Below are positions 36,494-46,221 of a stretch of 64,000 bases of DNA, one piece after another. This DNA is from Pseudidiomarina homiensis (GTDB lineage: Bacteria > Pseudomonadota > Gammaproteobacteria > Enterobacterales > Alteromonadaceae): assembly GCF_003987225.1 (NCBI RefSeq), contig NZ_PIPX01000001.1:1736001-1800000 (forward strand). Direction: 5' to 3'. Both the position numbers and the translations under genes were made by a program. The notes under the pieces were generated by a model. That model made no database searches. It had not been told where the DNA came from and saw nothing but the letters and a program-made list of their open reading frames with translations. Positions within the stretch are counted from its first letter, which is position 1, and every line of letters begins with the position of its first letter.

Positions 36494-37198
36494 TTACTGC
36501 GCGCTCAACCGCCCTTGAATGCGCTTAATGGCCTGACTATGTAATTGCGATACGCGCGACTCCGTCACATCCAATACCGCACCAATTTCTTTCAAATTAA
36601 GCTCTTCTTGGTAATACAGCGTCATGACCAGCTTTTCGCGCTCAGGCAAAGCATCGATGGCATGAATAACCAGTCCGCGCAGCTCGGCAGCGCCGAGTTG
36701 TTGCTCAGGTTGGTCGTCGACAGCTCCATCGCCTACTTCCATATGGCTGCCGGCGGAGGTCAGTTCGTCAAGAGAAAGCACAAGGCCATTGTTAGTGTCG
36801 CTCAACAAGCTACGATAGGCGTCGATGTCGAGCCCCATCGCTTCAGCAATTTCGCGTTCTTCTGGCGGTCGCCCTAACGTTTGCTCTAAACGCCGCATGC
36901 ACGCTTCGAGTTCGCGTCCGCTGCGCCGCACGCTACGTGGTAACCAATCTCGGCTACGTAGCTCATCGATCATTGCACCTTTGATGCGTTGATGCGCAAA
37001 CGTTGAAAATGCCACACCAGACTCAGGGTCGAAACGATCGACGCTTACCAACAAGCCTTCGAGCCCTGATTGAATAAGATCGTCGACATCTACGCTCTCC
37101 GGCAATTTCACTTTAAGTGAAAACGCAATGCGGCGCACGAGCGGGTAATACTGCTCCACTAAATGATGCTTATTTAATTTACCTTCCGCTGTATACAT
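36494..37198 (-). CDS. fliA: Flagellar sigma factor 28
   Basis: FliA directs RNA polymerase to late (class III) flagellar genes. The 234-residue protein has sigma region 2 (HLVEQYYPLVRRIAFSLK, DLIQSGLEGLL, FSTFAHQRIKGAMIDELR), region 3 and region 4 (ALPEREKLVMTLYYQEELN, then LDVTESRVSQLHSQAI). It is the last gene of the minus-strand flhB-flhA-flhF-flhG-like-fliA run. Six matching FliA promoters are present in this window. Confidence 0.98.
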   Translation of the reverse strand: MYTAEGKLNKHHLVEQYYPLVRRIAFSLKVKLPESVDVDDLIQSGLEGLLVSVDRFDPESGVAFSTFAHQRIKGAMIDELRSRDWLPRSVRRSGRELEACMRRLEQTLGRPPEEREIAEAMGLDIDAYRSLLSDTNNGLVLSLDELTSAGSHMEVGDGAVDDQPEQQLGAAELRGLVIHAIDALPEREKLVMTLYYQEELNLKEIGAVLDVTESRVSQLHSQAIKRIQGRLSAQ

Positions 37199-37214: not shown

Positions 37215-37700
37215 TTAATCCGAGAAGACCAACAACTGGAGATCAAAATAGTTCTGTGCGACCTGCTGCAGATTACTAAGTAGGCCGCGCCGTGAGCGTA
37301 TTGGCTCATGTAACGCTAACACCTGCTTAACCTGTCCCGTTGCTGCTAGGGCTTTCAAACAGGTATAAGCACGTTTAAATCCGTCCAAGTCATTATCAAT
37401 CCAAATCGCCCAATACCGACATTGTTGCGCTATATCCGTTAGTTCAGGATGATTCGGCCCAACCTGTACGAATTGCCATTGCGCTGGGGACCCGACCCAC
37501 TTGCGACCTTGGTCAGCCCAACGGGTAAACACGTTAGTATAATTTTCAGTCGCCTTAACGCTCCCTGCGGGAGTGTTATCAAGTACCATTACCGTGCGTT
37601 TGGCCGCATCGGCATTTGTTGCTGGTACAGTGTCCTGTATTTCGTTTGGCCGCTCTTGTTTTGCCGCCCACGCTCTTAAACTTGCTGCCTGATCGGTCAT
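37215..37700 (-). CDS. Reduced FlhG-like protein without a working P-loop
   Basis: This 161-residue gene occupies the flhG (MinD-like ATPase) slot between flhF and fliA. Residues 3-9 read DQAASLR, the DQAxxLR motif by which FlhG stimulates the FlhF GTPase. Residues 44-67 (PAGSVKAT, then NVFTRWADQGRKW) line up with the FlhG P-loop and following helix (GGVGKT...N..LA..GRKV), but the glycines and the order of K and T are lost. The second half (DGFKRAYTCLKAL, then LLSNLQQVAQNYFDLQLL) resembles the C-terminal helices of FlhG. The middle, about 100 residues including Walker B, is missing. The frame is intact, spaced 5 bases from flhF, with no internal stop, so it looks used. Homology is by eye. Confidence 0.65.
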   Translation of the reverse strand: MTDQAASLRAWAAKQERPNEIQDTVPATNADAAKRTVMVLDNTPAGSVKATENYTNVFTRWADQGRKWVGSPAQWQFVQVGPNHPELTDIAQQCRYWAIWIDNDLDGFKRAYTCLKALAATGQVKQVLALHEPIRSRRGLLSNLQQVAQNYFDLQLLVFSD

Positions 37701-37705
37701 AGGGG

Positions 37706-39802
37706 TTACTGCTCTTGTTGATACACGACGCGGAACGCCTCATGGGCCTGAATAACTTGCCACATCGCCGACATTAGCTTACTGGCCTCGATTCTACCTG
37801 AACGCTGTGTCAGCGCCATTAATTGCGCACGAACTTGACTGCCGCCTTGATGCTGCGTGTGCTCCACACGGCTCGCCAAAGCGGCTAAGACGCCACTAAG
37901 ATAGAGCCGTTTGTTATTGGCCTCAACCGAATTTTCCGTAATGGCGGCGTTACTTTCCAACTGCTGCCAAGCGAGACGCGTCAATCGAGGAAGCTCATCA
38001 TTCAGTAGCATGTAATCTACGAGACAGCGCGTTTGCTCCGCTGTGCACGCTGAATGAACAAGAAAAAACCGCTCAAACTGACTGCCTTTCGCTTTCCCGG
38101 CACTCACCTTCACGCCAAGTAACTGTAATGTTTCCTCGCTATCACGCTGCAAACTCACTGCGGCAATGCGTAATTTTACTTTGCGTTGCTCACCGCGGTA
38201 CGTCATCGTCCACTGATCAAGATCAATACCATTGCGAGCAATGACCTTAACACAAGAATTTTTCTCACCTTGACTCACCACATGGTGATTGCGACTTGGC
38301 TTTGCCAGCCACGCAACTTGTTCCTGCTCAAGAGCCATCAACTGCGTCACATTCGGCAAATAGTCAAACAAGTGCCCTTGGTTGGGTTGCAAAACCTCAG
38401 CGTCATCACATAAATGCTGGAGCACAGCATCCACTAACGGCAATCCCGCTGAGTCTAACGCAATATGAGGCGTAAGCTGCCCCCAACCTTGAAACGGACG
38501 CGGCGCCGACCACAAAGCCCACGCCGTAGCTTGCGGCAACTGGCGAGGAAGTTCTCCAATCGTCGAGGCATCGCCGATCCGCGCAGATACTTCAGCAAAG
38601 TCTGGCACGACAGCAGCAAGCCCTTCGACGCACTGGCGAATCACCTGCGCGTGACTCACTAAAGCATAACTGTCGGGCGACAGCCCAGAGGACAACTGAG
38701 CACCTTCTGACTCTGCGAACGCATGGGTTTCTGCGGTTACCGTGAGCGACGCTGCAACCAAGGCATTAAAATCAGGCGCCTGTATATCCTCTGGTACCTG
38801 CTGGCCGCCCGAAACAGCTTGCAAGCACAGTCCAAAATGCATCGCCGTATCCAGCGCCCCACCAAGACATGATGCCTCATCTGTTTTGGTCAATATACAA
38901 TCGCGCAACGGCAGCTCTAGTTGTTCTGCGATCGTTTGATAAACGCTGGCGACTTCGTGCAACGTCGCCTGTTGTGATGCCGCATTGAGGAGCAGTGCAA
39001 GACGCGGTTTACTACCTAACTCGGGCACCGAAAACGAGGCGATCCGCTGGGTCAATCGGTGATCACGTTGGCTCATACCCACCGTGTCCACCAGCACCAA
39101 ACGCTTGTTCTTAATTTTTTCGGCCAACACTTCTAAATCACTGTCATCGGTCATCGCAAACAACTCAACATTGAGTAACTCTGCGTAAGTTGCTAACTGC
39201 TGTTGTGCTCCAACACGATAACTATCTGTGGTCACCAAGAGTAAACTCTCGCTGCCCATTTGCATCACATAGTGCGCAGCAAGTTTCGCTGTGGTCGTGG
39301 TTTTCCCAACACCTGTAGGGCCGACTAACGCAATTACACCTTGATGTTGCAGTAAATCCCAATCCTGCTGCGGATGCTGTAACCGCGCTGCAAGTTGTTG
39401 CGTAAGCCACGCTTCGATGGCCTCACTACGGGTCTCTGAACGTGATAAGTGCTGCGGCATTAAGGTGATTAATTCACGCGCGAGTGCTTCTGAGTAACCG
39501 GACGAACGGAGCTTTAAATAGCTCCACTTGCGTTTATCTTCTGGAGGATTCTGATTCATTTGCTGTTGCAGCAAACTGCGCATTTCTTGCACATCATGCA
39601 ACAACTGACGGGTTATGTCCGATGCAGCTTCGGCGGGGGCTTCACCGACCACGTTATCAAGGTCTTCCTCGCGTAACGCGAAAACCTCGAACCCCTGCGC
39701 TGTTTTACGCGAGGTCACAATAATCGCGTCAGCGCCCATGGCTGCCCGCACAAGACGCATTGCTTCTTTATGACTCTGAGCCTCAAACCGCTTCAAGCTC
39801 AT
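37706..39802 (-). CDS. flhF: Flagellar GTPase FlhF with a long C-terminal extension
   Basis: FlhF is an SRP-type GTPase that recruits early flagellar parts to the membrane. It begins MSLKRFEAQSHKEAMRLVR, followed by a linker to about 90 and the NG GTPase: GPTGVGKT at 161-168, TTDSYRVGAQQQL, DTVGMSQRD at 239-247 (usually DTAGMSQRD) and TKTDE at 305-309. A normal FlhF would end near residue 355-400, but this protein continues to 698. The extra ~340 residues are soluble, with no motif I recognise. It overlaps flhA by four bases. Confidence 0.93.
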   Translation of the reverse strand: MSLKRFEAQSHKEAMRLVRAAMGADAIIVTSRKTAQGFEVFALREEDLDNVVGEAPAEAASDITRQLLHDVQEMRSLLQQQMNQNPPEDKRKWSYLKLRSSGYSEALARELITLMPQHLSRSETRSEAIEAWLTQQLAARLQHPQQDWDLLQHQGVIALVGPTGVGKTTTTAKLAAHYVMQMGSESLLLVTTDSYRVGAQQQLATYAELLNVELFAMTDDSDLEVLAEKIKNKRLVLVDTVGMSQRDHRLTQRIASFSVPELGSKPRLALLLNAASQQATLHEVASVYQTIAEQLELPLRDCILTKTDEASCLGGALDTAMHFGLCLQAVSGGQQVPEDIQAPDFNALVAASLTVTAETHAFAESEGAQLSSGLSPDSYALVSHAQVIRQCVEGLAAVVPDFAEVSARIGDASTIGELPRQLPQATAWALWSAPRPFQGWGQLTPHIALDSAGLPLVDAVLQHLCDDAEVLQPNQGHLFDYLPNVTQLMALEQEQVAWLAKPSRNHHVVSQGEKNSCVKVIARNGIDLDQWTMTYRGEQRKVKLRIAAVSLQRDSEETLQLLGVKVSAGKAKGSQFERFFLVHSACTAEQTRCLVDYMLLNDELPRLTRLAWQQLESNAAITENSVEANNKRLYLSGVLAALASRVEHTQHQGGSQVRAQLMALTQRSGRIEASKLMSAMWQVIQAHEAFRVVYQQEQ

Positions 39803-41886
39803 TGACGCTCTCCAATTATTTGTACCACTTTGATGCCTCGATCATGCGGAATTTCCGCTTGAGAAACAACAACAATATCGCTCACTTGGCGTCTCAAGAA
39901 ATGCGCCATCAACTCACGTAATGCATGGGGTACCACCAGAACTGGTGGTTGTCCCATAGCCTGTGCGCGTTGTATTGCCTGTTGTGCCTGTTGCTGCAAT
40001 GTCGCGGCAAGCCCCGGCTCGAGTGCACTATTTTGCTGCAATGCCTGCATGAGCATTTGCTCAAGGTTCGCATCTAGTCCAATCACTTCAAGTTCAGCCG
40101 CACCACCGAACCATTTTTGGGTAATCATGCGGCCTAACGCGATACGTACTTCCGCCGTGAGTTGCTGGACATCGAGCTGTTGCCCTTCAAATTCCGCCAA
40201 CTTATCAAAAATCGTGCGTAAATCACGAATCGAAACATCTTCGTCAAGCAAACGCTGAAGTACCCGTTGTAAGTTGGTCACGGTCACGCACTTCGGAATG
40301 ACATCATCGACCAAGGTTTTATTTTCTTCGCCAAGCTTATCAACCAGTTTTTGAACTTCTTCGCGACCAAGCAGTTCTGCCGAATGAACTTGTAGCAAAT
40401 GATTAAGGTGAGTCGCCACCACAGTGCTTGAATCGACAACTGTATAACCGTAGATTTGTGCGTGCTCTCGTTGCTCACTTTCAATCCACAAGGCAGGCAA
40501 GCCAAAGGCTGGATCCGTGGTTTCGATGCCTTCAATTTCAGTGGTGACTTGTCCAGGATTAATCGCCAACCACATTTCTGGATAAATTTCGGCACGCCCT
40601 ACTTCACTGCCTTTGAGCGTGATGACATAAACATTTGGCTTGAGTTCGAGGTTGTCTCGGATGTGAACTACGGGTGGTAAAAAGCCAACTTCTTGTGCGA
40701 ATTTTTTTCGCACGCTCTTGATACGGGCCAACAGTTCACCCTGCTGATTATCGTCAACCAATGGTATCAAGCGATGACCAACCTCCATACCCAAAGTGTC
40801 GACCAAGTTGACGTCTTGCCAACTTGCTTCGGGTGCGCTGTAAGCAGCAGGCGGTTCGGCCGATATATTGTCTGCTGCGGCCTGCACGCGGTGTTGTTCT
40901 TGTTTGCGATAGAGAAACCAAGCAAAGCCACCTAACATCGCAGTAAACAACAAGAAAATAAAATTCGGCATGCCCGGCACTAAGCCTAACAAGCCAATTA
41001 CTCCAGCCGCCAACATGAGAACTTTTGGATTAACAAAAAGTTGTTTGATCAATTGTTGACCGACATCTTGCTCGGTATTTACCCGAGATACTGTTACACC
41101 GGCAGCAGTTGAAATAATGAGCGCTGGGATTTGTGCCACAAGACCATCGCCAATCGTCAACAGCACGTAGGTGTGTGCCGCGTCGCCCATCGACATATTA
41201 TGCTGCATGACGCCAATCAACAGGCCGCCAATAATATTGACGACCATGATCACCATACCCGCCACGGCGTCGCCGCGCACAAACTTGCTCGCACCGTCCA
41301 TGGAGCCATAAAATTCGGCTTCCTGAGCGACTTCTTGTCGACGGCTACGGGCTTCTTCTTCGCCGATCAGCCCAGCGTTAAGATCCGCATCAATCGCCAT
41401 CTGTTTGCCGGGCATGGCGTCAAGGGTAAACCGTGCACCTACTTCAGCGATACGTCCGGCGCCTTTGGTGATGACCATAAAGTTAATAATCACCAGGATC
41501 AAAAACACCACTAAGCCGACCGCGAAATTACCACCCACGAGGAATTGCCCAAACGCCTCTATCACCTTACCAGCCGCATCACCACCTTGGTGCCCTTCCA
41601 TCAACACCACTCGAGTACTCGCAACGTTAAGCGACAAACGCAACAAGGTTGAGAACAATAGCACCGCAGGAAACGCGGCAAATTCCAAAGGTTTTTCCGA
41701 AAACATGCTCACCAATAAGACCATCAGTGAGAGCGCGATATTGAAGGTGAACAAAAAGTCCAACAAGAAGGGCGGCAACGGTAATACCATCATCGCCAAA
41801 ATCATCAAGATAAGGACCGGGCCGACCAGCACTTGCAGTCGGTCATAACGAAGGCCGCGCATAACTTCTCTAAACGCTACACTCAT
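39799..41886 (-). CDS. flhA: Flagellar export apparatus protein FlhA
   Basis: FlhA is the ion-driven export gate subunit. The 695-residue protein has an N-terminal membrane half of eight helices (about 1-330). The FHIPEP-family signature region is visible as AGRIAEVGARFTLDAMPGKQ, then MAIDADLNAGLIGEEEARSR over two stretches. The C-terminal cytosolic half (about 350-695) forms the substrate-docking ring. Four-base overlaps with flhB and flhF show a tight operon. Confidence 0.98.
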   Translation of the reverse strand: MSVAFREVMRGLRYDRLQVLVGPVLILMILAMMVLPLPPFLLDFLFTFNIALSLMVLLVSMFSEKPLEFAAFPAVLLFSTLLRLSLNVASTRVVLMEGHQGGDAAGKVIEAFGQFLVGGNFAVGLVVFLILVIINFMVITKGAGRIAEVGARFTLDAMPGKQMAIDADLNAGLIGEEEARSRRQEVAQEAEFYGSMDGASKFVRGDAVAGMVIMVVNIIGGLLIGVMQHNMSMGDAAHTYVLLTIGDGLVAQIPALIISTAAGVTVSRVNTEQDVGQQLIKQLFVNPKVLMLAAGVIGLLGLVPGMPNFIFLLFTAMLGGFAWFLYRKQEQHRVQAAADNISAEPPAAYSAPEASWQDVNLVDTLGMEVGHRLIPLVDDNQQGELLARIKSVRKKFAQEVGFLPPVVHIRDNLELKPNVYVITLKGSEVGRAEIYPEMWLAINPGQVTTEIEGIETTDPAFGLPALWIESEQREHAQIYGYTVVDSSTVVATHLNHLLQVHSAELLGREEVQKLVDKLGEENKTLVDDVIPKCVTVTNLQRVLQRLLDEDVSIRDLRTIFDKLAEFEGQQLDVQQLTAEVRIALGRMITQKWFGGAAELEVIGLDANLEQMLMQALQQNSALEPGLAATLQQQAQQAIQRAQAMGQPPVLVVPHALRELMAHFLRRQVSDIVVVSQAEIPHDRGIKVVQIIGERQ

Positions 41887-43025
41887 TGTGCCGGTACCTC
41901 ATAATCTTCAGGAATCGAAATCGCTAAGGGTTCAGGTGGTGTCGCCGCCTGACCTACTTGCGCTTTTTTCACTTGAAACGCCCACGCCAATACCTCTGCT
42001 ACCGCACTATATAAGGCCACAGGGACCTCGCGACCGATATCAACATGCTTGGTCAGCGAGCGTGCCAACGGCGGCATCTCTAGCTGAGGAATGCGATGTT
42101 CATTGGCTAATTCACGAATACGCTGGGCCACTAAGTCAGTACCCTTAGCAACGACACGCGGAGCGCCCATGGTTGCTTCGTCATATTTAAGTGCCACAGC
42201 GAAATGGGTCGGGTTGGTAACAATAACATCTGCTTTTGGTACTTCGCTCATCATGCGCTGGCGTGCCATGGCTTGTTGCTGTTGGCGAATTTTGGCCTTG
42301 ATATGCGGGTCACCATCGGTTTCTTTATTCTCGCGCTTCACTTCTTCTTTGGTCATGCGTAACTTCTTGGTGTGACTCATGAGCTGATACGGCACATCAA
42401 AGAGGGCGACAACAATCAGCGTCAAGACCATATACAAACATGCCGTGGCCGCGAGCTCTAATGCTGATACCAGTGCTTGCTTGACCGGTAGGCGCAACAG
42501 TTCCATGAAACTAAAGCGCTCAACCCACAAAAATAACGCCAGTACACCACCAACCAACACTGTTTTCGCAATCGCTTTGCCTAATTCTGCCAGTGCCTGT
42601 CCGGAAAAAATCCGCTTAACCCCTTTTATCGGGTTGAGCTTGCTAAACTTCGGTTGCAACGCCTTCGCTGAGGCAACCCAACCGCCTAGAAGCGCTGGAG
42701 CGACAGCGGCGAGAACCAGCATCACTGCAAACAAAGGTAGAACCGCCCAAAGCGCCTGCTCGCCGAGCCGCAATACGCTCTGGAGCATGGGGCCAGGCTC
42801 CGTCACTTGCTGCCGATCAAACAAGAACGATTGTTCCATGACCACGCCCAAGTGATTAAAAAGCGGCGAACTCATGCTCCACAGCAGCAAAACGCCACCG
42901 AACAAGATCACAAAAGTGGTCAGCTCGCGCGAGCGAGCGACCTGACCTTCATCACGCGATTTTTGTAATCTTCGCGCGGAGGGTTCTTCTGTTTTTTCTT
43001 GGTCGTTAGATTCTTCTTGTGCCAT
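41883..43025 (-). CDS. flhB: Flagellar export switch protein FlhB
   Basis: FlhB switches export from rod/hook to filament substrates. The 380-residue protein has a charged N-terminus (EKTEEPSARRLQKSRDEGQV), four membrane helices (about 30-210) and the autocleavage motif NPTH in VTNPTHFAVAL near residue 267. The C-terminal export domain follows to 380. It is the first gene of the flhBAF-flhG-like-fliA block, after the motAB terminator. A partial second copy of its C-terminal domain (flhX) is at 45952. Confidence 0.98.
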   Translation of the reverse strand: MAQEESNDQEKTEEPSARRLQKSRDEGQVARSRELTTFVILFGGVLLLWSMSSPLFNHLGVVMEQSFLFDRQQVTEPGPMLQSVLRLGEQALWAVLPLFAVMLVLAAVAPALLGGWVASAKALQPKFSKLNPIKGVKRIFSGQALAELGKAIAKTVLVGGVLALFLWVERFSFMELLRLPVKQALVSALELAATACLYMVLTLIVVALFDVPYQLMSHTKKLRMTKEEVKRENKETDGDPHIKAKIRQQQQAMARQRMMSEVPKADVIVTNPTHFAVALKYDEATMGAPRVVAKGTDLVAQRIRELANEHRIPQLEMPPLARSLTKHVDIGREVPVALYSAVAEVLAWAFQVKKAQVGQAATPPEPLAISIPEDYEVPAQ

Positions 43026-43095: not shown

Positions 43096-43995
43096 TTATG
43101 GCGCAGCACTATTACGCAGTTCACCTTTGCTTATTGCCGCCTCGGCAGTTTGATCCTGAGGGAAAAATCCTTGGCGACGAATAAAGTCGGCAGATTCTGG
43201 TGTGTGGATCACAATGGTAATGCGTCGATTACGCGGGTCATCGGCGCTCGTACCATCCAGCGGAATCCTGTCTGCCGCCCCCATGACCAGGAGTAGTTGC
43301 TCAGACTTAAAGCCACCTTCAAGTAGGGCCTTGCGCGAAGCATTGGCCCGATCAGCAGATAACTCCCAGTTGCTATAACCTTGCTCACCGCCAGCGTAAG
43401 GAAGCGAATCGGTGTGGCCACTAATGGTGATTTCATTTGGTATTTCATTAAGTAGCGGAGCCATGGTGCGTAACAGCCGCTCCATGTAAGGCGCGATTTT
43501 ATCACTTCCCAACTCAAACATCGGACGGGCTTCAGTATCGAGCATCATGATACGCAACCCTTCACGAGTGATATCAAAGCGCAACTGCGCCTTCAACGCG
43601 CGCAATACCGGATCAGCTTCGATTGCCGCTTCGACTTTTCGCTGAATTTCATTAAAGTGCCGACGGATATCGGCGGGACGAGTTTCACGGCGCAGGTCAA
43701 TGCGTGCTTCCTCACCCTTCATGTGCGTTGGATCATCACCACCACCCTTTATAGCACTGGTACTAGCGGAGGCTTTGTCGCCCCCGGCCATTGCAACAAC
43801 CAGCGGCGTTCGAAAGTATTCCGAGATACTTTGCCGTTCCTCTTCGCTCGACATCGACAAAATCCACATGACCAAAAACAACGCCATCAAAGCCGTCATG
43901 AAGTCGGCCAACGCGATTTTCCAACTGCCGCCATGATGCTTGTGTTTCTTCGCCTTTCGGCGACGAATGATGATGGGTTGTTTTTCATCAGCCAT
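43096..43995 (-). CDS. motB: Flagellar motor stator protein MotB
   Basis: MotB anchors the proton-driven stator to peptidoglycan. The 299-residue protein has a basic N-terminus and a single membrane helix (about 29-50) with the proton-binding Asp at residue 31 (LADFMTALMALFLVMW). A linker and plug follow, then an OmpA-like domain (about 180-290) with ISGHTDSLPYAGG and NWELSADRANASRKAL. Its start ATG overlaps the motA stop by one base. Confidence 0.98.
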   Translation of the reverse strand: MADEKQPIIIRRRKAKKHKHHGGSWKIALADFMTALMALFLVMWILSMSSEEERQSISEYFRTPLVVAMAGGDKASASTSAIKGGGDDPTHMKGEEARIDLRRETRPADIRRHFNEIQRKVEAAIEADPVLRALKAQLRFDITREGLRIMMLDTEARPMFELGSDKIAPYMERLLRTMAPLLNEIPNEITISGHTDSLPYAGGEQGYSNWELSADRANASRKALLEGGFKSEQLLLVMGAADRIPLDGTSADDPRNRRITIVIHTPESADFIRRQGFFPQDQTAEAAISKGELRNSAAP

Positions 43996-44861
43996 TAGGC
44001 AGACTCCGTTGCATTGCCTCGAACGTGGTCTTCCAATTCAGTAAAGCTTGGGCGTTCTTCTACATGCAAAGCTTTTCGACCAAATTCAATCGCTAACTGA
44101 GGTGCATAACCGTGCATGCTTGCTAGCAACGTGACGCGGATAACTTGTAAGGTTTTGATGACTTCTGCAACTTGCCGCTCAATCCGACTCGCTAGTGGAT
44201 TAATAAATCCATAACCCAGCAAAATACCTAAGAATGTACCCACCAAGGCGTGTGCAATCATCGTCCCCATAACATCGGGCGGAACATCGGCAGTACTAAG
44301 GGCGCGTACCACGCCGAGTACTGCTGCGACGATACCAAAGGCAGGCATGGCATCACCTACTTTGGTTAGCGCATCGGACGGAATTTCGCCCTCTTGCTCC
44401 ATGGTTTCAATCTCATGCAGCATCAATTCGTCTAACTCATGAGGATTCATATTACCGCTGATCATTAAGCGCAAATAATCGGTGATAAAATTAACCAACA
44501 TTGGATCTTCCAAAATATCCGGATGCTCGCCAAAAATTGCACTTTCTTGCGGATTTTCAACATCTTGCTCTGCCGCCAACATGCCATCACGACGCATTTT
44601 GTTGAGTAATTTGTAAATGACTGAAAGCAACGACAAGTAGGTTTCGTTGTTATAACGAGTTGAGGCCTTGAGTTTTTTTGAAGCATTTAAGGTTGCGCGA
44701 ATCGCCTTGCCATTATTGGCCGCAATAAAGGCGCCCACTGCCGCGCCGCCGATAATAACGAATTCGAGCGGTTGAAAAAGCGGGCCTAGTGCACCACCGG
44801 CAAGGGCAAAGCCGCCGAATACACAGGCAATAACAATGAAGAAACCTAATGGAATGAGCAC
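43995..44861 (-). CDS. motA: Flagellar motor stator protein MotA
   Basis: MotA surrounds MotB and couples proton flow to rotation. The 288-residue protein has four membrane helices: two near the N-terminus (about 1-50) and two at about 165-230, with GDAMPAFGIVAAVLGVVRAL between cytoplasmic loop and helix 3. It starts 57 bases after flhC, with its own FliA promoter overlapping the flhC end. Confidence 0.98.
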   Translation of the reverse strand: MLIPLGFFIVIACVFGGFALAGGALGPLFQPLEFVIIGGAAVGAFIAANNGKAIRATLNASKKLKASTRYNNETYLSLLSVIYKLLNKMRRDGMLAAEQDVENPQESAIFGEHPDILEDPMLVNFITDYLRLMISGNMNPHELDELMLHEIETMEQEGEIPSDALTKVGDAMPAFGIVAAVLGVVRALSTADVPPDVMGTMIAHALVGTFLGILLGYGFINPLASRIERQVAEVIKTLQVIRVTLLASMHGYAPQLAIEFGRKALHVEERPSFTELEDHVRGNATESA

Positions 44862-44894: not shown

Positions 44895-44921
44895 TTATCG
44901 GCCTTAGGCGCTGGAACTTAA
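44895..44921 (-). promoter_or_regulatory. FliA (sigma-28) promoter of motAB
   Basis: On the minus strand TTAAGTTC (44921-44914), an 11-base spacer and a perfect GCCGATAA (44902-44895). Consensus is TAAAGTTT, 11 bases, GCCGATAA. It overlaps the last codon of flhC. Confidence 0.85.
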
Positions 44922-45463
44922 ATTTGTTTTACCGATTTTGTGCGGTTTTTCTTAAGAGGCTTACCAGCTCTTGATGGCGGTTGGCAGACGCCACAAACAT
45001 AGTCGTCATCCGGTGTATGCGCATGATTAACAAAATTTAATTGGCACTGATTACACTTAGACAACTGGAACATGCCATTCTCGAAAAAGCGCACCAAAGT
45101 CCACGCTCGTGTCAATGCCAGCACCTCTTCGTCATCTTGTAGACGCATATGCTCTTGATACAAGCGATAGGCCTTGATAAACGCTTGCATACGTTCAAGA
45201 TCTTGCCCTTCACGCAGGCGTGAGTAGATCGTATAAAAGAACGAAGCATGAATGTTGGGCTGCCAAGTCATGAACCAATCTGTGGAAAACGGCAGCATTC
45301 CTTTCGGCGGCGACTTGCCTGAAACTTCTTTATACAAGCGAACTAAACGACCGCGATTTAGGCCAACCTCGGACTCGAGTACCTGCAGCCGCGCACCGAG
45401 CTCAATGAGCTCGATCGCCAGTTGAACTTGGCTGAGTTCTTCGAGTAGTTTGCGAGTCGCCAT
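44918..45463 (-). CDS. flhC: Flagellar master regulator FlhC
   Basis: FlhC with FlhD forms the FlhD4C2 activator of class II flagellar promoters. The 181-residue protein has the four zinc-ligand Cys at 137, 140, 157 and 160 (CNQC and CGVC), the same positions as in E. coli FlhC. It has the helix-rich DNA-binding part (GRLVRLYKEVSGKSPPKGM, LPFSTDWF). It starts ten bases after flhD. FlhDC as master regulator is usual in enterics, betaproteobacteria and halomonads, not in most Alteromonadales. Confidence 0.97.
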   Translation of the reverse strand: MATRKLLEELSQVQLAIELIELGARLQVLESEVGLNRGRLVRLYKEVSGKSPPKGMLPFSTDWFMTWQPNIHASFFYTIYSRLREGQDLERMQAFIKAYRLYQEHMRLQDDEEVLALTRAWTLVRFFENGMFQLSKCNQCQLNFVNHAHTPDDDYVCGVCQPPSRAGKPLKKNRTKSVKQI

Positions 45464-45473
45464 CGTTGTAACC

Positions 45474-45779
45474 TTACGCGCTAGCGGACGCCATCAGCAT
45501 CGCTAAATGGGTTTCGCGCATGCTTGGTGCACGCGAGTTTGAGAGAATCTCTTTCAATGTATTCGTTGCATCAACACAAGGGCGTAACCAACTTTGCGGC
45601 TGGCGTGCCAATAAAGTAAGGTCTTTCACCGACATTTCAGCAATCAAGTCCGCAAGATCTTCGTCGATCTTTAATCTAAAAATCGCCGCATCGCGATCTT
45701 CAGTGACAAGTTTTTGCACCAACAACAAGTAGTTCAAGTTCAACTCTTGTAGCTCTGCTAAAACTTTTGATTGCGTCAT
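45474..45779 (-). CDS. flhD: Flagellar master regulator FlhD
   Basis: FlhD is the partner of FlhC. The 101-residue helical protein begins MTQSKVLAELQELNLNYLLL, followed by RDAAIFRLKIDEDLADLI and WLRPCVDATNTLKEIL with a Cys at the position of the E. coli disulfide. I start at ATG 45777-45779 because AGAGGA is eight bases upstream. An upstream TTG would add seven residues and destroy that ribosome site. A strong dyad lies about 28 bases upstream. Confidence 0.95.
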   Translation of the reverse strand: MTQSKVLAELQELNLNYLLLVQKLVTEDRDAAIFRLKIDEDLADLIAEMSVKDLTLLARQPQSWLRPCVDATNTLKEILSNSRAPSMRETHLAMLMASASA

Positions 45780-45806
45780 AATGTCATTCCTCTTTAGCAA
45801 ACTTGC

Positions 45807-45951: not shown

Positions 45952-46221
45952 TCAACGAGTTATTTCAATAGATCGGACCCAAACCAACAATTCTGCAACA
46001 ACTTCCCAAAGCGTTTGCGGTACATAATCGTTAAGTTCAATTTGCGATAAAAGGTTCACCAATTCGGGTGAATCGTGCACAAAGATACCATGCTCTTGGG
46101 CACGACGGATGATCTCTTCAGCGATCAAACCGTCGCCCTTAGCGACAACCTTCGGCGCCGGTTCAAAAGCTTGATACCGCAAAGCGATCGCTTTTTTGTC
46201 GTTGCCTTTAGGTTCGCTCAT
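45952..46221 (-). CDS. flhX: FlhX: stand-alone FlhB C-terminal domain
   Basis: The 89-residue protein matches only the cytosolic export domain of FlhB: AIALRY, PKVVAKGDGLIAEEIIRRA, HDSPELVNLLSQIELNDYVP and LWEVVAELLVWV. It has no membrane part, and the NPTH cleavage motif is absent because the homology starts just after it. Such FlhX proteins (also EscU/YscU/HrcU-like) can partly replace the FlhB fragment in some bacteria. It follows the FliK-like gene with a 14-base overlap. Confidence 0.9.
   Translation of the reverse strand: MSEPKGNDKKAIALRYQAFEPAPKVVAKGDGLIAEEIIRRAQEHGIFVHDSPELVNLLSQIELNDYVPQTLWEVVAELLVWVRSIEITR

Follow-up and report, generated by a model that had tools for sequence, protein, structure and literature searches.

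Results

Gene order at the locus

In the window, by which we mean the whole stretch of 64,000 nucleotides analysed, flagellar genes lie in a row on the reverse strand, in which flhF, a short flhG and fliA follow one another tightly (Table 1). The short flhG begins 5 bp after flhF and ends 16 bp before fliA, and its product starts with MTDQAASLR. An earlier note on this DNA had described a 161-residue in-frame gene in the flhG slot of a tight operon, with DQAASLR at residues 3-9, and the open reading frame and its translation bear this out. The closest named relative of the protein is that of Pseudidiomarina sp. CB1, at 91% identity. A second, canonical FlhG in the genome of the window was sought by similarity search with the short protein as query. 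Upstream of flhD, an 89-aa gene (45952-46221, reverse strand) matches the C-terminal part of FlhB alone (PF01312).

Table 1. Features of the flagellar gene row, in positions of the window.
Feature	Position	Strand	Basis or remark
short flhG	37215..37700	-	161 aa, ATG start, intact ORF
DQAASLR enhancer-helix motif	37674..37694	-	residues 3-9 of short FlhG; D, Q, A, L, R invariant in 63/63
variable linker of short FlhG	37593..37664	-	about residues 13-36; alignment
beta-1/P-loop place in short FlhG	37545..37592	-	residues 37-52, assigned by position; Walker A absent
FlhG-homologous segment	37218..37424	-	residues 93-161, TDAYALIK helix to strand after RFLDV; hhalign
flhF	37706..39802	-	698 aa; TIGR03499 above cut-off
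SRP-type GTPase domain of FlhF	38750..39337	-	PF00448, residues 156-351; GTPase motifs by alignment
FlhF C-terminal tail	37709..38677	-	about 320 residues; no convincing Pfam/PDB relative
fliA (sigma-70 family)	36494..37198	-	Pfam
flhA	39799..41886	-	Pfam
flhB	41883..43025	-	Pfam
motB	43096..43995	-	Pfam
motA	43995..44861	-	Pfam
flhC	44918..45463	-	Pfam
flhD	45474..45800	-	Pfam

Motif, P-loop and size of the short FlhG

A total of 63 short FlhG were collected, 15 from the genus and 48 from a second gammaproteobacterial family, f194, which is represented by 81 genomes and inferred to be Halomonadaceae-like. Similarity searches found 53 of them, namely the 15 of the genus with a single-sequence query and 38 of f194 with a profile that included the motif columns, and the other 10, all from f194, were chosen by position and motif. 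The exact DQAxxLR stands at the N-terminus of all 63. Since every homologue found by similarity carries the exact motif, in frame beside flhF, its presence is more than chance. When the 63 are aligned, six columns alone never vary, D3, Q4, A5, L8, R9 and W75, at a mean column identity of 24%, and G65, W75, W97, W100, A148 and L156 are near-invariant. The distance from the motif to the end of the protein ranges from 133 to 292 residues, and the frame is open in each case. Over 70 close pairs, which are not independent of each other, motif residues 3-9 show 6 non-synonymous versus 184 synonymous differences (pN/pS 0.012), and the protein from residue 13 on has a pN/pS of 0.378 in the same pairs, which indicates extreme constraint on the motif and ordinary purifying selection on the remainder. 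The open frames and this selection agree with the earlier view that the gene is not obviously a relic. The further claim that it keeps only the FlhF-activating motif is right as to the extreme retention of the motif, and too strong as to the rest, a remnant with conserved Trp and Gly residues that is still under selection.

The P-loop pattern G.GK[TS] occurs in none of the 63, and is present in the controls (13/13 P-loop outgroup FlhG, as well as those of G306 and G414). The stretch PAGSVKAT, taken in the earlier note as a degraded P-loop, reads TPTNGVRAT in the 91%-identical sister and is replaced by GLP-type loops in most others. As it is not conserved, the P-loop is better described as absent than as recognisably degraded; the lack of a Walker A itself stands. 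With the P-loop missing, ATP dependence was probably lost.

About 100 central residues had been thought missing, and measurement replaces this figure with two separate losses. Between the motif and the conserved Tyr of the TDAYALIK-like helix lies a median of 165 residues for 13 P-loop FlhG and of 109 for the 15 proteins of the genus, or about 55 net fewer central residues, the variable linker forming part of the 109. From this Tyr to the C-terminus the values are 122 and 50, so that some 72 residues are lost there. Judged by the position of the membrane-targeting sequence, taken from the available portion of PMC12826062, the C-terminal region with the membrane-targeting helix of FlhG is lost from the short form.

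No Pfam or NCBIfam model matches the short FlhG of the window, and at E 0.01 no FlhG, MinD or ParA model matched any of the 63, the few matches being to unrelated families, each of which was hit by no more than 4 of the 63. Genomes that carry the short form may for this reason be counted as having no flhG. An AlphaFold model of the window protein, from a two-sequence input, had a mean pLDDT of 39.4 and was unusable. A tblastn search of plasmids with the short FlhG of the window, that of L048 and a beta-like FlhG gave no match.

Descent from FlhG

A third family (f132), beta-like by inference, provided the connection to P-loop FlhG. From 41 of its 58 FlhF loci, which were taken in, we read 34 FlhG without a P-loop and 3 with one; 3 loci had no room for flhG and 1 ended with its contig, and flhG is thus missing beside flhF in 3/40 usable loci (L129, L139 and L159). 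The profile of the short form matches that of the 34 P-loop-less beta-like FlhG at a probability of 97.2% (hhalign, E 4.5e-11, 69 columns), and the beta-like profile in turn matches 13 P-loop FlhG at 99.1% (E 1.3e-18, 204 columns). Against the PDB, the beta-like profile finds FleN at 4.8e-16, and FleN chains are also the best matches of the short-form profile (E 0.016). The direct match of the short form to the P-loop FlhG profile is weak, at 44.7%, or 3.4% with the genus alone; the stretch from the motif to residue 93 aligns only loosely, and a forced global hhalign reaches the motif through a middle part that is untrustworthy. On profile comparison, then, it is the beta-like P-loop-less FlhG that tie the short form to genuine FlhG, and the descent proposed in the earlier note is upheld by this chain.

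Distribution and the link with FlhC

In the genus, the short flhG is present in 15 of 26 genomes, which are the same 15 that have FlhC, and every copy is flanked by a long flhF frame of 678-725 aa on one side and fliA on the other. One FlhC-negative genome (G020) encodes an FlhF of 454 aa and, after it, an FlhG of 292 aa that contains both GGKGGVGKT and DQASGLR. The remaining 10 lack FlhC and have no FlhF above the family cut-off; 3 of these 10 are less than 90% complete. When a sample of 369 genomes from the class was searched with the profile, two matched, that of the window and one more, and the second led to family f194. There FlhF is found in 65 and FlhC in 61 of the 81 genomes (in G498 the FlhC match is split over two frames), and all 65 FlhF loci were read. 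The short FlhG is present in 48 of 51 genomes with both FlhC and FlhF. The other three, which belong to one genus (3/3 sampled), have FlhC and a long-tailed FlhF with no flhG adjoining; a genome-wide search of this genus with the profile found none, though the same profile failed to pick up the short FlhG in two further genera. In all 14 FlhC-negative genomes with FlhF, the FlhF is short and fliA follows directly, with no room for flhG between (L106-L112, L162-L168), and 10 more FlhC-positive genomes have no FlhF at E 1e-30. The gene lies directly downstream of flhF in 15/15 loci of the genus and in 47/48 measured in f194, the 48th (G496) being placed from search coordinates. The short form next to flhF in FlhDC-type gammaproteobacteria is found in two lineages.

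The loss of the P-loop, which is linked with FlhC, reaches wider than had been thought, into both beta-like and gammaproteobacterial genomes. Among 110 FlhG, G.GK[TS] is lost in 96/97 FlhC-positive loci and intact in 12/13 FlhC-negative loci, the exceptions being G379 and G539; as the genomes are related, independent events are far fewer than 110. In the beta-like family alone, 33 FlhC-positive loci are without and none with a P-loop, and of the FlhC-negative loci 1 is without and 3 are with it. Eleven outgroup genomes were hand-picked from 187 FlhF-positive ones. Two of these, G306 and G414, have a P-loop, yet were not recognised by the motif pattern and so remain outside alignment A5 and the 110; G180 and G304, with weak FlhC-like matches, were scored as FlhC-negative. 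FlhG was read in 5 of the 7 genomes with a strong match in the same FlhC search; in G281 the flhF region was not located, and in G228 no FlhF was found.

The FlhF partner

GTPase motifs are present in the FlhF of the window and in 8 FlhF of f194 from loci with short FlhG that were aligned with it. Counted from the P-loop to the C-terminus, FlhF has 206-225 residues in 15 loci with P-loop FlhG, 215-227 in 34 beta-like loci and 194-203 in the 14 FlhC-negative loci of f194. By contrast, the same stretch is 502-544 residues long in the 15 loci of the genus, 548-585 in the short-FlhG loci of f194, 19 of which were measured out of 48, and 560-561 in the three genomes of f194 that have no flhG beside flhF. 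The short-FlhG clade thus has an FlhF tail of about 330 residues, alignable across both lineages (28 sequences), for which searches of Pfam and the PDB gave no convincing relative. A move of the MinD-like part into this tail was ruled out (hhalign of the tail versus FlhG, 0.3%). Three named Cupriavidus records combine a tailed FlhF (627-640 residues) with a full-length FlhG that carries DQAESLR and a Walker A without Lys (GAGATT, GVGTTT, GAGTTT), and a single-sequence comparison of one such tail, that of Cupriavidus CH34, with the gamma tail gives a match across 319 columns (87%, E 3.9e-6).

In quick trees of the FlhF GTPase domain, made without bootstrap, 34 short-FlhG rows (of the 63) form one clade across two families, with an SH-aLRT of 99, or 98 once Cupriavidus is added. 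Cupriavidus joins this clade at SH-aLRT 88, below the starred level, and the AU test does not reject a topology in which all 40 tailed FlhF group together (p-AU 0.636). The likely order of events is that the P-loop was lost and the FlhF tail was present while FlhG still had its full length, after which FlhG shrank and in places vanished.

The FlhF residue after G3 (DTxGxxQRD) is Q in 15/15 loci of the genus, in 31/31 of f194 (16 more being uncovered), in 24/34 beta-like loci, in 8/13 systems with P-loop FlhG and in 4/21 without FlhG, these four being one contig end and the three loci of the f194 genus without flhG. One beta-like clade within L121-L145 shows an eroded motif (HQGAGLR, TQGAGLQ and others) together with PRD in place of QRD in FlhF, and the three beta-like loci without flhG fall in this part of the FlhF tree. 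An intact motif goes with FlhF Q at 22:0 in the beta-like sample, and an eroded one at 2:10 (p = 5e-7). As the 10 belong to one clade and P-loop systems do not all have Q, this association is a lead and not independent evidence. The pattern used to choose the beta-like FlhG frames demands Q/R and L/M within the motif, which partly builds in the invariance of the motif Q in this sample.

Discussion

We consider that an ATPase-free FlhG, kept as an activator of the FlhF GTPase, is the best reading of these sequences, with a probability of roughly 0.8. The gene itself encodes an FlhG that retains the enhancer helix and has lost the MinD-like ATPase, with its P-loop, a portion of its centre and the membrane-targeting region at the C-terminus. 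The Cupriavidus proteins support this reading as a transitional form, in which a full-length FlhG without the Walker A Lys accompanies a long-tailed FlhF. The enhancer helix of FlhG activates FlhF, and its Gln is reported as a co-catalytic element in the available portion of PMC12826062. In the proposed mechanism, the Gln of DQAxxLR would enter the composite active site of the FlhF homodimer, and once inserted would speed GTP hydrolysis, returning FlhF to the monomer. The setting is an FlhDC-type flagellar system whose FlhF has a C-terminal tail of about 330 residues. Without P-loop and membrane-targeting region, the short protein would be expected to have no ATP-driven dimer, membrane shuttling or FleQ/FlrA contact, and number control may have been lost or passed elsewhere, perhaps to the FlhF tail. 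The activator does appear to be dispensable, given that one f194 genus has a long-tailed FlhF with no flhG beside it.

The short form shares with the MinD-like ATPases FlhG, FleN and YlxH the order flhF-flhG-fliA, the N-terminal DQAxxLR helix and a homologous segment near the C-terminus, and differs from them in being FlhC-linked and about half as long, with neither P-loop nor C-terminal membrane-targeting region. With the P-loop-less beta-like FlhG it has in common the FlhC link (33/34), the missing Walker A and the enhancer helix; those proteins, in contrast, have 202-271 residues, match P-loop FlhG over 204 columns, and include a clade in which the helix motif is eroded. Cupriavidus FlhG, with a dead, Lys-less Walker A, likewise keeps the enhancer helix. 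SulA is a RecA-like protein without ATPase. In both SulA and the short FlhG an ATPase fold would have been cut to a binding module, while family and target are unrelated.

Could the remnant domain instead be the working part, as an adaptor of a new kind for the C-ring, FliF or the FlhF tail, with the helix serving mainly as a peptide for docking on FlhF? The purifying selection on the rest of the protein (pN/pS 0.378), the near-invariant G65, W75, W97, W100, A148 and L156, and the conserved FlhF tail in the same clade are all in keeping with this. However, a length of 133-292 residues after the motif and a column identity of 24%, set against five motif residues that never vary, make it unlikely. 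We hold it very improbable that the gene is a decaying relic, retained only through the recency of its loss: the P-loop is gone in 96/97 FlhC-positive loci, and flhG is absent beside flhF in 3/51 f194 genomes with FlhC and FlhF and in 3/40 beta-like loci, but the 63 open frames under purifying selection, and one old clade across two families in the FlhF tree (34/63, SH-aLRT 99), speak against decay. That an unrelated small protein in the flhG slot acquired a DQAxxLR-like N-terminus, as the silence of the FlhG, MinD and ParA models and the weak direct match to P-loop FlhG might suggest, is hardly credible in view of the profile link to beta-like FlhG, FleN as best match in the PDB, the identical gene order and the Cupriavidus intermediates.

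The reading as a retained FlhF activator can be extended, tentatively, to a FlhF-FlhG switch rebuilt without its ATPase, in which FlhG would stand in for the SRP RNA and the spatial or number input would have moved to the C-terminal domain of FlhF. Four stages might then form one path from a polar switch to enteric-type flagellation, although we put the odds of this below even: a long-tailed FlhF with a Lys-less FlhG of full length (Cupriavidus), the same with a shrunken FlhG (as in the window), the same without FlhG, and FlhC without either.

The suggestion of a possibly peritrichous flagellum is compatible with the genus description of Pseudidiomarina, which in the part available gives a single polar flagellum, peritrichous flagella or non-motility (PMC6193092); P. 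piscicola, though, is described as polar (available part of PMC8055624). Burkholderia cenocepacia is FlhDC-driven. According to the available text of PMC4905959, which names a flhBAFG operon, flhF deletion in this species leaves no flagella. A survey, as far as its text was available, takes the presence of FlhF to mark polar flagellates, an exception being Bordetella bronchiseptica, which is peritrichous, and finds FlhG directly downstream of FlhF in 20/21 cases (PMC7064773). The available part of a study on Halomonas bluephagenesis reports flhF, and has flhG in its reference list only (PMC10185862). Among the matches listed from the open-access literature, which mostly leaves subscription papers outside, no title or abstract opening describes a P-loop-less or shortened FlhG.

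What the short FlhG would offer is a natural separation of function: FlhG normally controls flagellar number, and in this group of marine and halophilic bacteria the helix that activates FlhF has been retained in evolution while the ATPase was shed. It would also serve as nature's own test of the part of the FlhF-FlhG switch that still matters. The finding touches two questions left open in the available portion of PMC12826062: contacts of FlhG and FlhF with the transcriptional machinery beyond FlrA/FleQ, on which 'virtually nothing is known', and how flhF and flhG come to be absent from gammaproteobacteria that have a beta-type flagellum. The conserved tail of FlhF is a second, uncharacterised part.

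Two minor observations concern other genomes of the sample. At G014:C1:326779-327255 (L051), a second, weak FlhC-like match of 56 bits lies outside the flagellar row. The FlhG at L179 (G414) has an intact GKGGVGKT, with no DQAxxLR seen in the preceding stretch, and is possibly a mirror image of the short form.
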